Assembly (NCBI GenBank): GCA_022768695.1
Contig: JALEPO010000164.1
Coordinates: 1-38,757 of the forward strand
Direction of reading: 5' to 3'
Length of the DNA stretch: 38,757 nt
Source: Clostridia bacterium
Lineage (GTDB): Bacteria > Bacillota > Clostridia > UBA1381
Below are positions 12,230 through 38,629 of this stretch, one piece after another. Made by a program: the position numbers and the translations under genes. How positions within the stretch are numbered: position 1 is the stretch's first letter; every line of letters starts with the position of its first letter. The notes under the pieces are model-generated. The model saw nothing but the letters and a program-made list of their open reading frames with translations. It was not told the DNA's origin and did no database searches.

Positions 12230-12258
12230 TTGAAAAGTGCGGCATTATATGATATTAT
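12230..12258 (+). promoter_or_regulatory. SigA-type promoter for the GH35 leader RNA
   Basis: TTGAAA (12230-12235) - 17 bp - TATTAT (12253-12258). Confidence 0.7.
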
Positions 12259-12264
12259 AACTAA

Positions 12265-12460
12265 AAGTAAGCGGCTAAAATTCTAAAAGAACATATCAAG
12301 TGATGGTATGATTTGTGGCACAGAGCTAAGTATTGAACATTTGTAAGACCTTGAAGTGATGCATATAACATTGGGGTTGGCTTGCTTTACGGCGGGAACG
12401 CAATCTGCCGCTGAAATACGGGGGCATTGCGTCCTATTGAAAATAATATCAGGAGATATT
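12265..12460 (+). ncRNA. Candidate structured leader RNA / ncRNA upstream of GH35 gene (pseudoknot-capable)
   Basis: about 200 nt from predicted start to ATG; CGGCGG(12390-12395)/CUGCCG(12405-12410) stem, loop ACGCAAU(12398-12404) complementary to AUUGCGU(12426-12432); AAUAUC-agga-GAUAUU hairpin placing the RBS core in its loop (12445-12460). Confidence 0.5.
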
Positions 12461-12465
12461 TGATT

Positions 12466-14544
12466 ATGGATTATGTATTTAACGAAATTGAAAAATATGA
12501 AATTATATCGGGACATCTGAATTTGGGCGGCAAAAATCCGGCTGATGAGGAAATTACGCTAAACAGCAAATATCTTATAAGAAACGGTAAGCCGTGGATG
12601 CCTGTAATGGCTGAATTCCATTTTTCACGAGTTAATCGTGATGATTGGCGGCGGGAGCTTTTAAAAATGAAGGCAGGCGGTATAACTGTTGTTTCTACAT
12701 ACCTGTTTTGGATATATCATGAAGAAATCGAGGGTGAATTTGATTTTTTCGGCAATCAGGATATTCGTGCCTTTCTTGAGATATGCCGCGAAACAGGTCT
12801 TGAAGCGGTTATACGGATAGGGCCGTGGGCGCATGGAGAATGCCGTAACGGTGGTTTTCCCGACTGGCTTCTGAAAAAGGGAATTGTACTTCGTGAAAAT
12901 AATGAAGAATATATGAAATATGTTCGCATTTGGTATGCGAAAATTGCCGAGCAGGTTAAAGGATTGTTTTATAAGGATGGAGGCCCGATTATAGCTGTTC
13001 AGCTTGAAAATGAGCTTGTAGATGGCGCGGAGCATCTGGCAGAGCTGAAAAAGCTTGCGATTGAGCTTGGTATGGTTGCACCGCTGTACACAGTAACCGG
13101 CTGGAACAGCTCAAGAGGGGCAAAAATTCCTGTGGATGAGGTGCTGCCGGTATTTGGCGGTTACAGTGAAGCGCCGTGGGAAGACCATACAAATCCGCTT
13201 GCACCGTCACCGCATTTCTTTTTTAATACTATGCGCAATGATTCGGCAATAGGAACCGACCTTATCGATCAGACTGTAAATGATGAATGGCAGCTGCCGT
13301 ATGAAAGGTATCCCTTTGCCACCTGTGAGTTGGGCGGCGGAATACAGGTTACGCATCATCGCCGACCGAAAATTTCACCTATGGAACCGTATGCGGTATC
13401 TATGATTAAAATTTGTGACGGCAACAATCTACCGGGATATTATATGTATCACGGCGGAACAAATAAGATTGGCAGACTTTCTACGCTTAATGAAAGCAAA
13501 GATACGGGCTATCCTAATGATTATCCTATTTTGTCATATGATTTTCAGGCGCCGATAGGTGAATACGGAATTGTCAGACGTCAGCACGGATTGTTGAATA
13601 TGCTTCATTTGTTTGTTCATGATTTTGGCAGTATTATTGCGCCTATGAATACCGCGCTGGGTGACTGCGTTGACAGGTTTGATACTGAACATTTAAGATA
13701 CGCTATGCGGACGGACGGGGAGAGCGGATTTGTGTTTGTAAACCATTTTCAGCGAATTACAAAGCTCTCGGATGTGTCAGATGTAAGGTTTAAGGTTGAT
13801 GATAAGCTGACCTTCCCGGAAAAGGGGATTACGGTTTCGGGAGAAATCTGTTTCTTTATGCCGTTTAGAATGGCGCTTGGCAATGAGGTGCTTGAATATG
13901 CGGCAGCACAGCCGGTTTGTCATGACAATAATACATATTTTTTTGCTGAAATACCGGGTGTAGATGCAGAATATAAAATAGATGGTGAAATTATAACCAG
14001 CCATGATTTTGTGAAGAATAATGTAAGAATTATAACACTTCCGTTTGAACAGGCGGAAAAGCTGCGCAGACTTGACGGTGAATTGTATATAGGAAACGGC
14101 TGTAATCTGTATATAGAGGACGGCAAAATCAAATCAGTAGAGCCGGGAAGCTATTCGTATAAGAAATGGAACGGCACATCTTTTGATGAATATTCACACG
14201 AGGTTGAATTTAAAGAACCTGAGGTTGAATTTATAAAGGTTGAAAAGCCGGATTTTGAACCTGAATATCTTTACGAATTGAATATTTGCGGTGAACGCAG
14301 GCTTGAATGGTACAAGCTGAAGGCAAAGGGCAGCGAAGGATTTCTTAAGCTTTCCTATATCGGTGATGCCGCGCAGCTTTATGCTGACGGTAAGCTTGTT
14401 GCAGATGATTATTTTTACGGCGATGACTGGATAGTTCCCGCAAAGCTGCTTGACGGAAAGGAAGTTTATTTCGGATATTCACAGCTTCGTGATGACTGCT
14501 ATCTTGAATGTGATATAGAAAAAAAGATTGGAACGATTAAATGA
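12466..14544 (+). CDS. Intracellular glycoside hydrolase family 35 (beta-galactosidase-like); ATG at 12466 preferred
   Basis: GKPWMPVMAEFHFSRVNRDDWRRELLKMKAGGITVVSTYLFWIYHE, IRIGPWAHGECRNGGFPDWL, GGPIIAVQLENEL; no signal peptide. Confidence 0.9.
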   Translation: MDYVFNEIEKYEIISGHLNLGGKNPADEEITLNSKYLIRNGKPWMPVMAEFHFSRVNRDDWRRELLKMKAGGITVVSTYLFWIYHEEIEGEFDFFGNQDIRAFLEICRETGLEAVIRIGPWAHGECRNGGFPDWLLKKGIVLRENNEEYMKYVRIWYAKIAEQVKGLFYKDGGPIIAVQLENELVDGAEHLAELKKLAIELGMVAPLYTVTGWNSSRGAKIPVDEVLPVFGGYSEAPWEDHTNPLAPSPHFFFNTMRNDSAIGTDLIDQTVNDEWQLPYERYPFATCELGGGIQVTHHRRPKISPMEPYAVSMIKICDGNNLPGYYMYHGGTNKIGRLSTLNESKDTGYPNDYPILSYDFQAPIGEYGIVRRQHGLLNMLHLFVHDFGSIIAPMNTALGDCVDRFDTEHLRYAMRTDGESGFVFVNHFQRITKLSDVSDVRFKVDDKLTFPEKGITVSGEICFFMPFRMALGNEVLEYAAAQPVCHDNNTYFFAEIPGVDAEYKIDGEIITSHDFVKNNVRIITLPFEQAEKLRRLDGELYIGNGCNLYIEDGKIKSVEPGSYSYKKWNGTSFDEYSHEVEFKEPEVEFIKVEKPDFEPEYLYELNICGERRLEWYKLKAKGSEGFLKLSYIGDAAQLYADGKLVADDYFYGDDWIVPAKLLDGKEVYFGYSQLRDDCYLECDIEKKIGTIK

Positions 14545-17096
14545 GAAGATTAGTAATTGGAATACTTGCACACGTTGACTCCGGTAAAACCACTCTCTCT
14601 GAGGGAATGCTTTATCGTGCCGGAGAAATACGAAAGCTTGGAAGAGTTGATCACGGAAACGCCTTTTTGGACAATAATCAGATTGAGCGTGACAGGGGTA
14701 TTACTATTTTTTCAAAGCAGGCGGTGCTGCCGCTGAATGGCACAGAGATTACCTTGCTTGACACTCCGGGACATATTGATTTTTCAACTGAAATGGAGCG
14801 CACTCTACAGGTGCTTGACTATGCAATTTTAGTTATAAGCGGTACTGACGGGGTGCAGAATCATACGGAAACACTGTGGAGATTGCTTATAAGATATAAT
14901 ATACCTACGTTTATATTTATTAATAAAATGGATATTTCCGAATATGAAAAAGATGAGATCATAATGGAGCTTAGGGAAAGACTTGATGACGGGTGTATAA
15001 ATTTTGACGATATTTCCTCTGAAATCTTCAGAGAATCGCTTGCTATGTGCGATGAAGAGCTGATGAATATTTTTGTTGACGGTGAAGATTTTAGCAATGG
15101 TAATATCGGCAAAGCTGTGGCAGAAAGAAAAATCTTTCCGTGTTATTTCGGATCTGCGCTTAAGCTTGAGGGAGTAGATGAATTTCTGGAGGCTTTGGAA
15201 AAATACACCGTTGATATAAAGTATGGTGATGAGTTTGGCGCAAAGATATTTAAAATATCTGAGGATGAGCAGGGTAAGCGTCTTACTCATATGAAGATTA
15301 CAGGTGGAAGTCTGAAAATAAAGACGCTGCTTACAGACAGTAAGGGTGAAGATTGGGCGGAAAAGGTAAATCAGATACGCATATATTCTGGAGTAAAGTA
15401 TAACTCGGTAAATGAGGCGTTTCCGGGAACTGTTTGCGCCGTTACCGGACTTACCCGTACATATCCGGGCGAAGGTATTGGCGCGGAGGCTGATTCGCAG
15501 CTTCCTGTCCTTGAACCGGTGCTTACTTATCGTGTTGAGCTGCCTCAGGGGATAGATGTGCATGAAGCATTGGTACGTTTAAGACGCTTAGAGCAGGAGG
15601 ATCCCGAGCTTCATATATTATGGAATGAACAGCTTCAAGAAATCCATATGCAGCTAATGGGTGAGGTGCAGCTTGATATTTTGAAACGTATAATTTCAGA
15701 ACGCTTTGATATGGATATTGAGTTCAGCCGCGGCAGTATTGCATATAAGGAAACCATTGCAGAGCCGGTTGAAGGAGTGGGACATTACGAGCCGCTCCGG
15801 CATTATGCTGAGGTTCATCTGTTGCTTGAACCGGGTGAAAGGGGCAGCGGATTGCAGTTTGCTGTAAAATGCAGCGAAGATGTTCTTGATCGTAACTGGC
15901 AGCGGCTTATTTTGACTCATCTTGAGGAGAAAAAACATATAGGTGTTCTGACCGGCTCGCCGATTACAGACATGAAAATAACTTTGATAGCCGGCAGAGC
16001 GCATCAAAAGCATACCGAGGGCGGTGATTTCAGACAGGCGACCTATCGCGCTGTGCGGCATGGACTAAAATCGACGGAAAGTATTTTGCTTGAACCGTGG
16101 TATGATTTTAGGCTGGAGGTTCCTACTGAATCGATAGGACGTGCAATTACTGATATTCAGCAGATGGGAGGAAGCTTTTCACAGCCGGAAAATCGAGGAG
16201 ATATGTCGGTTATAAAAGGAAGCGCACCTGTTGCAAAAATGCGTGATTATCAGGTTACGGAATATACCCGAGGACGAGGACGACTTTCGTGCGTGGTAAA
16301 GGGCTATGAGCCTTGTCATAATGCTGACGAGGTTATTGAAGCAATTGGATATGACAGTGACAGTGATACCGAAAATACAGCGGATTCTGTTTTCTGCTCG
16401 CATGGTGCGGGATATACTGTGAAGTGGGATAAGGTTACGGAGCATATGCATCTTGAAAGCGCATGGCAGCCGGAAACGGAAGAGGATGAAGAACCTAAAA
16501 TTATTGCCCGGCAGGTGAAGGAATATCTGGACAGCATTGCCGAGGATAAAGAATTGGTGAGAATTTTTGAAAATACCTACGGAAAAATAGACCGTAAACC
16601 GCATACGGCACTGGAAACTAAAAAGTCGGCACCGAAGAAATATCCCAAGGCAAAACCGCTCCCGCAGGGGCCTGAGTATCTGCTTGTGGACGGATATAAT
16701 ATTATATTTGCATGGGACGAGCTTAAGACTATTGCTGATAGGGATCTTGAAGCGGCGCGCGGCAGACTTATCGATATACTTTGTAATTATCGGGGCTTTA
16801 GGAATTGTGAGCTGATTCTTGTATTTGACGCATACAAAGTAAAAGGAAATGTGCGTGAGGTTGAAAATATCCATAATATAAGTGTTGTTTATACAAAGGA
16901 AGCAGAAACCGCTGATATGTATATAGAAAAGGTAACGCGTGAGCTGGGTAAGAAGCACCGTGTAAGAGTAGCGACCTCGGACAGCCTTGAGCAGATTATA
17001 ATTCTTGGCAGCGGAGCATACAGAATGTCCGCATCTGAATTATATGCGGATATAAAACGTGTTGAAAAAGAAATAAAGGAATATATGAAATCATAG
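14541..17096 (+). CDS. Tet(M)/EF-G-like ribosomal GTPase fused to C-terminal YacP/Rae1-like NYN (PIN-like) nuclease domain
   Basis: GILAHVDSGKTTLSEGMLYRAGEI, LLDTPGHIDFSTEMERTL, FINKMD; C-term EYLLVDGYNIIFAWDELKTIADRDLEAARGRLIDILCNY..LVFDAYKVKGN..VYTKEAETADMYIEKVT..RVATSDSLEQIIILGSGAYRMSASEL. Confidence 0.93.
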   Translation: MRRLVIGILAHVDSGKTTLSEGMLYRAGEIRKLGRVDHGNAFLDNNQIERDRGITIFSKQAVLPLNGTEITLLDTPGHIDFSTEMERTLQVLDYAILVISGTDGVQNHTETLWRLLIRYNIPTFIFINKMDISEYEKDEIIMELRERLDDGCINFDDISSEIFRESLAMCDEELMNIFVDGEDFSNGNIGKAVAERKIFPCYFGSALKLEGVDEFLEALEKYTVDIKYGDEFGAKIFKISEDEQGKRLTHMKITGGSLKIKTLLTDSKGEDWAEKVNQIRIYSGVKYNSVNEAFPGTVCAVTGLTRTYPGEGIGAEADSQLPVLEPVLTYRVELPQGIDVHEALVRLRRLEQEDPELHILWNEQLQEIHMQLMGEVQLDILKRIISERFDMDIEFSRGSIAYKETIAEPVEGVGHYEPLRHYAEVHLLLEPGERGSGLQFAVKCSEDVLDRNWQRLILTHLEEKKHIGVLTGSPITDMKITLIAGRAHQKHTEGGDFRQATYRAVRHGLKSTESILLEPWYDFRLEVPTESIGRAITDIQQMGGSFSQPENRGDMSVIKGSAPVAKMRDYQVTEYTRGRGRLSCVVKGYEPCHNADEVIEAIGYDSDSDTENTADSVFCSHGAGYTVKWDKVTEHMHLESAWQPETEEDEEPKIIARQVKEYLDSIAEDKELVRIFENTYGKIDRKPHTALETKKSAPKKYPKAKPLPQGPEYLLVDGYNIIFAWDELKTIADRDLEAARGRLIDILCNYRGFRNCELILVFDAYKVKGNVREVENIHNISVVYTKEAETADMYIEKVTRELGKKHRVRVATSDSLEQIIILGSGAYRMSASELYADIKRVEKEIKEYMKS

Positions 17097-38578: not shown

Positions 38579-38629
38579 AGGGGCTGTTGCAAATAAGTGA
38601 GAAAATTTCACTTATTTGCAACAGCCCCT
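38579..38629. repeat. Perfect 22-bp inverted repeat with 7-nt loop
   Basis: aggggctgttgcaaataagtga gaaaatt tcacttatttgcaacagcccct. Confidence 0.95.

Follow-up and report, generated by a model that had tools for sequence, protein, structure and literature searches.

Positions 12261-12441 of the window (the whole 38,757-nucleotide stretch of Clostridia bacterium DNA that was analysed) very probably hold one diverged copy of a small repeat that is mobile, intergenic and dispersed in this bacterial family. The element is best read as a mobile structured interspersed repeat of the BOX or bcr1 type, without terminal inverted repeats or target duplications, and it is apparently undescribed, being outside Rfam and not found in open-access literature text. 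A sequence-only reading had seen in this stretch, the leader of a glycoside hydrolase (GH35) gene, a pseudoknot-based translational switch, and what was a one-off riboswitch guess becomes a family of mobile, structure-conserving repeats.

A covariance model based on the single sequence 12380-12466 was run over 122 genomes and returned weak matches, two of which, in the related genomes G001 and G006, had the same motif order. The loci behind them revealed the canonical element of about 115 nt, AACTAAAAGCAAGATGTCCCCCGCCTCTATAGGCGGCGGGTTCCACTTACTTTTTTCAGTGGGGGTACAATCCCCCACTGAAACGTTGAATGACGGGGCTTTGCCCCTTATTGAA, and a second covariance model was built from 15 copies. The window's own genome (G000) has at least 23 copies, and G001 and G006 have at least 39 each; the 17 copies in 0.79 Mb of G006 extrapolate to about 90 in its 4.1 Mb. 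The element was matched in 22 of 95 genomes of the order, all within the window's family, and a clear copy (95.8 bits) was found in another family of the class (G120, L149). Its ends are fixed, WATAA/CTAAAAG...CTTATTGAA/, where slashes mark the boundaries, and among the copies read seven in one relative are identical. All the genomes are drafts in which single copies could be misassembled, although the comparison of filled and empty orthologous sites generally argues against it.

Those filled and empty sites, together with the seven identical copies, indicate that the element is mobile. Orthologous loci of G000 and G001, which belong to the same genus, were located through neighbouring genes, and filled and empty sites were paired at gyrB, thrC, niaR, nusG, pfkA, folB, argC, atpD and rnfC. 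At gyrB the empty site reads TTATTTTAA/CTACTATA and the filled site TTATTATAG/CTAAATT...CTATTGAA/CTACTATA; the nusG copy sits directly after the TAA stop of secE, and the nrnA locus has degenerate copies in both genomes. Boundaries are constant between empty and filled orthologous sites. Over 72 clean copies the 5' flank is constant (T68 A93 T93 A96 A96, then C96 T100 A100, giving WATAA) and the 3' flank varies. Apart from a possible AA, these 72 copies showed no target duplication, flank identity at k=3-6 being near the permutation expectation with the constant AA alone in common, and on direct reading CTAAAAG at one end and TTATTGAA at the other do not form inverted repeats. Insertion is 3' of (W)ATAA, a sequence often supplied by the stop codon TAA of the preceding gene (22 of the 65 that lie upstream on the same strand), and in the tandem pair L228 the TTGAA end of one copy is the target of the next.

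The core of the element contains three hairpin systems that covary, and a small terminal hairpin; in the family fold a helix P1 encloses a P2 of variable length and is followed by P3 and P4. The P1 consensus is AAAAGcAAG/CTTgCTTTT, the P3 loop reads uACAAUc and P4 reads GGGGC-nnn-GCCCC; at the 3' end stands UUAUUGAA. Compensatory changes preserve this fold across the family. Among 92 distinct copies, in an alignment fitted to the structure and thus favouring it, all 33 tested pairs have double-sided changes and 92.1% of 2911 cells are paired. Double-changed cells in that alignment number 229 against 62 in shuffles, covariation is 0.271 against 0.132, and none of 500 shuffles attains any of five measures. 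With no structure model, a MAFFT alignment of 15 sequences gave 92.3% of cells pairing and nine double-sided pairs, which no shuffle equalled. P1 also occurs in subfamilies whose strands compensate each other (AAAAGCAAG/CTTGCTTTT, AAATTAAG/CTTAATTT and AAACGAAAG/CTTTCGTTT). A 4-bp pseudoknot between the CAAU of the P3 loop and the terminal AUUG is possible; its four pairs can form in 96.7% of cells, but they are so nearly invariant that covariation speaks neither for nor against it. A conserved, covarying, pseudoknot-capable structure outside Rfam is thus what remains of the earlier proposal.

Conservation of the fold raises the question of whether the repeat is a cis-regulatory RNA used by many genes, a class of riboswitch or of protein-binding leader that spread by copying and was kept for regulation. 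Diverged G000 copies keep the structure through compensatory change (115 double changes still paired, 28 unpaired), and G.U cells exceed A.C cells (69 to 46; in the sense strand 127 to 77), which mildly favours selection on the sense RNA. Downstream genes are in sense in 67 of 97 cases, 48 of them within 100 nt, but this bias is at least partly due to insertion at TAA stop codons. Against such a class, the neighbours are unrelated and share no pathway (pfkA, argC, nusG, gyrB, trpB, niaR, rnfC, thrC, a trk-like gene, toxin-antitoxin and sugar transport genes), copies are found in all orientations (46 tandem-sense, 18 convergent, 17 divergent and 11 antisense), and same-genus orthologues lack the element at most of the loci compared. 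We therefore regard a regulatory class as very unlikely, while the compensatory changes and the mild G.U excess leave room for a kept RNA function in what we take to be a mobile repeat.

The window copy is among the weaker members of the family, its P2 replaced by unrelated bases (Table 1). In the family register P3 alone has a folding energy of -10.1 kcal/mol, compared with -8.8 for the stem originally noted, CGGCGG (12390-12395)/CUGCCG (12405-12410), which is three bases out of register. When the pseudoknot is ignored, the nested minimum-energy fold around P3 and P4 (-22.2 kcal/mol) is lower than the family fold (-14.8).

Table 1. Features of the GH35 leader and of the copy of the repeat that it contains (window coordinates).
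Feature	Position	Strand	Basis or remark
Promoter-like site TTGAAA-17 nt-TATTAT	12230..12258	+	consensus match only; TG precedes the -10 box
5' flank ATAA, insertion target (family WATAA)	12257..12260	+	flank composition and gyrB pair; overlaps the -10 box
Mobile structured element CTAAAAG...TATTGAA	12261..12441	+	R2 model match 12259-12441, 42.6 bits, E 2.5e-5
P1 5' strand AAAGUAAGC	12264..12272	+	pairs with 12380-12388; alignment, minimum-energy fold, family covariation
Enlarged P2 region, 107 nt	12273..12379	+	unlike P2 of other copies; canonical P2 is a short hairpin
P1 3' strand GCUUGCUUU	12380..12388	+	alignment and minimum-energy fold
P3 hairpin CGGCGG (12390-12395)/CCGCUG (12408-12413)	12390..12413	+	loop holds conserved CAAU 12401-12404
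P4 hairpin GGGGGC-AUU-GCGUCC, one G.G mismatch	12420..12434	+	alignment, family covariation
AUUG, partner of loop CAAU 12401-12404 in the putative family pseudoknot	12436..12439	+	nearly invariant, without covariation support
RBS hairpin AAUAUC-AGGA-GAUAUU	12445..12460	+	outside the element, host sequence; SD AGGAG 12451-12455
GH35 glycoside hydrolase gene, 692 aa	12466..14544	+	Pfam PF01301, 200.5 bits

The features first noted in the leader are all present. The promoter is there (TTGAAA at 12230-12235, a 17-nt spacer and TATTAT at 12253-12258, agreeing with the consensus at 10 of 12 positions); the region holds two promoter-like sites, with 2.1 expected by chance. The noted stem closes the loop 12396-12404, whose ACGCAAU (12398-12404) is complementary to AUUGCGU at 12426-12432, with 21 nt between the strands and not the 22 claimed. 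That 7-nt second arm lies in P4 and is found only in the window copy and one atypical copy; no canonical copy has it. Pseudoknots of equal quality arise in 0.3-0.4% of shuffled leaders and in 4 of 372 tiles of the window, and the noted one ranks seventh among 422 H-type candidates in 38.7 kb; it is not exceptional when the whole window is read. The competing pairing of AGCGGC (12270-12275) with GCCGCU (12407-12412) also exists, arises in 2.9% of shuffled leaders and is absent among the family helices. Folding of the whole leader is of ordinary stability compared with shuffles (z = -0.76). Its 3' third, 12390-12437, is unusually stable (z = -3.3) as a nested hairpin that excludes the noted stem, the pairing probability of which is 0 in the nested ensemble.

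The hairpin at the ribosome binding site had been taken to occlude it. It can form, but at chance level (in 19% of shuffled leaders; z -0.16), and it displays the SD core in its loop, A12451-G12453 being unpaired with a probability of about 0.9. No terminator of the kind needed for terminator-type attenuation was found in the leader. A short reading frame that overlaps the end of the leader (12359-12463) was rejected, as it has no convincing SD and no support.

A translational riboswitch specific to GH35 would suit a leader that sits between a promoter and an SD and contains the strong local hairpin described above. The element is absent, however, upstream of the GH35 orthologues at 30 loci (54-64% identity), which lie in glycosidase clusters or behind unrelated leaders, and at tens of sites in a genome its neighbours are unrelated genes. 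Membership of the leader in a GH35-linked class is refuted: the leader is one copy of a dispersed repeat, its noted second arm is peculiar to that copy, and the RBS hairpin exposes the SD. A GH35-specific switch is hardly tenable, and the case carries the caution that single-sequence pseudoknot reading in the leaders of MAGs can hit repeats. Used as a search anchor in genome contigs, GH35 found only a distant Curvibacter gene, and the EF-G/YacP and Ca-ATPase anchors gave no usable synteny for the window locus. No empty site is available for the GH35 locus, since the one same-genus genome compared does not have this gene.

On the mobile-repeat reading, the window copy would have inserted itself immediately after the -10 box of the GH35 promoter and would now be transcribed as the GH35 5' UTR, between promoter and RBS; with the promoter just outside the element, such transcription is expected. 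Any effect on the GH35 mRNA would then probably be a side effect and not a metabolite switch. The hairpins may be kept because movement needs them, with single-stranded DNA or RNA as the substrate of an enzyme.

The length of the leader and its lone promoter would also fit a known non-coding RNA, and 6S and raiA RNA had been put forward. An Rfam scan of the locus, even at E 5, matched no family; the lone match listed, to Yfr21 (E 1.9), is at chance level, far below the cut-off of that family and located upstream of the element. 6S (RF00013) was not matched at the leader, the 6S RNA of the window's genome being elsewhere (G000:C36:11376-11568), and is excluded for this locus. RF03072 (raiA) had no match at the locus, nor across the window's genome in a search in which no control genome gave a signal. 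At the sensitivity of these searches, the probability that the leader is one of these RNAs is negligible. Canonical copies had no match in Rfam, and their likeness to LhrC (E 0.2, 31 bits with a cut-off of 110) was rejected. By blastn, the leader found nothing beyond chance in its own and related genomes, plasmids and phages, nor did the canonical element in plasmids and phages, and an exact-pattern search of viral contigs found none.

The element makes its mobilising enzyme a clear question. Short elements derived from IS200/IS605, such as PATE and REP, insert 3' of a short motif without target duplication and have hairpins near their ends. The present element likewise inserts site-specifically without target duplication, but there is no Y1 transposase in the draft genomes G000 and G001, none flanked by the element in the G006 draft and none beside the element elsewhere among these drafts. 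It differs from classical MITEs in having neither terminal inverted repeats nor a target site duplication. A motif search for TnpB zinc-ribbon and recombinase motifs found no association in the copy-bearing loci or in 0.79 Mb of the copy-rich G006; the single TnpB motif match (L243) is in a G014 locus that was fetched for its Y1 transposase. A serine-recombinase-like ORF with the motif KLDRISR lies 267 nt from a copy in G001 (L239, contig C50), and is the only recombinase-like gene observed close to a copy.

The absence of a TnpB motif bears on whether the repeat is a trans-acting guide RNA, of the omega or reRNA kind, of a TnpB-type system, with the 3' flank as guide and WATAA as target-adjacent motif. 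The fixed 5' and variable 3' flanks would fit this, as would a pseudoknot that abuts the variable flank, the last paired bases AUUG pairing with an upstream loop as in reRNA scaffolds. The tandem copy at L228, with TTGAA as its target, would also fit. The TnpB reRNA of RAGATH-18/IS607 (PMC11061315) is also a pseudoknotted structured RNA whose 3' end meets a variable flank. It differs in sequence and in its target motif, AGGAG/GAGGG (PMC11061315), there was no Rfam match to RAGATH-18 or HEARO, the motif search of these incomplete genomes found no associated nuclease, and no Y1 transposase was found beside the element. We judge a guide RNA to be a poorer prospect than the regulatory class considered above and highly improbable; if it were true, the tens of dispersed copies per genome would be a natural guide-RNA array.

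As a mobile structured repeat the element has close parallels. BOX of Streptococcus pneumoniae (Croucher et al. 2011, PMC3049150) is likewise a small intergenic repeat. It occurs in about 100 copies, has a modular build whose middle varies and extensive predicted RNA structure, is often co-transcribed with its neighbours, is limited to a few related species and is probably parasitic. That paper describes terminal inverted repeats and target duplications for BOX, whereas the present element has no inverted repeats and no target duplication beyond the possible AA, and belongs to another taxon; no sequence relation between the two was seen. The bcr1-bcr18 repeats of the Bacillus cereus group (PMC3446304) are also mobile-like and intergenic, several with conserved RNA structure, and occur in UTRs or between operon genes; they differ in taxon, insertion features and sequence, the last compared through Rfam only. 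In these poorly studied bacteria the tens of copies of the element supply intergenic regions with ready hairpins and stop codons. Since one genus offers both filled and empty sites, what the element does to mRNA ends, stability and translation is directly testable.

Variants of the repeat were also observed. One subfamily has an extra P3-loop hairpin, GTTGATTTGCAAGCAAGTCAAC (L153, L226, L229, L231, L233, L175 and others, in G001, G084, G090 and G065). Two copies of the window's own genome (L186 and L192) have long P2 arms with a related inner sequence, GAYGCAAGCGT...TATGYCTAYAAC, and large P2 inserts are therefore inherited in some lineages. A second dispersed repeat has the P2 and P3 modules in common with the first and other ends, GCAGATGTCCCCCGCC...GGAGTTATAATCTCCC...CCTGAGGAGCTAACGCTCC...GTTGCAATC (L239:1522-1627, L208:1478-1612, L211:1405-1527 and L164), so that module exchange between repeat families seems likely.

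Elsewhere in the window, the gene at 14541-17096 shares 4 nt with the end of GH35. It encodes a GTPase resembling EF-G/Tet(M), with a YacP (NYN) RNase domain fused at the C-terminus, and has full-length relatives in most genomes of the family. Its orthologue in G001 (L101, contig C94) reads TAA in frame at two positions that are Glu and Val in the window, and is either a pseudogene or an assembly error. At 38581-38628, just past the last long ORF, lies the local hairpin that is the strongest in the window, with -35.6 kcal/mol in 48 nt on both strands.
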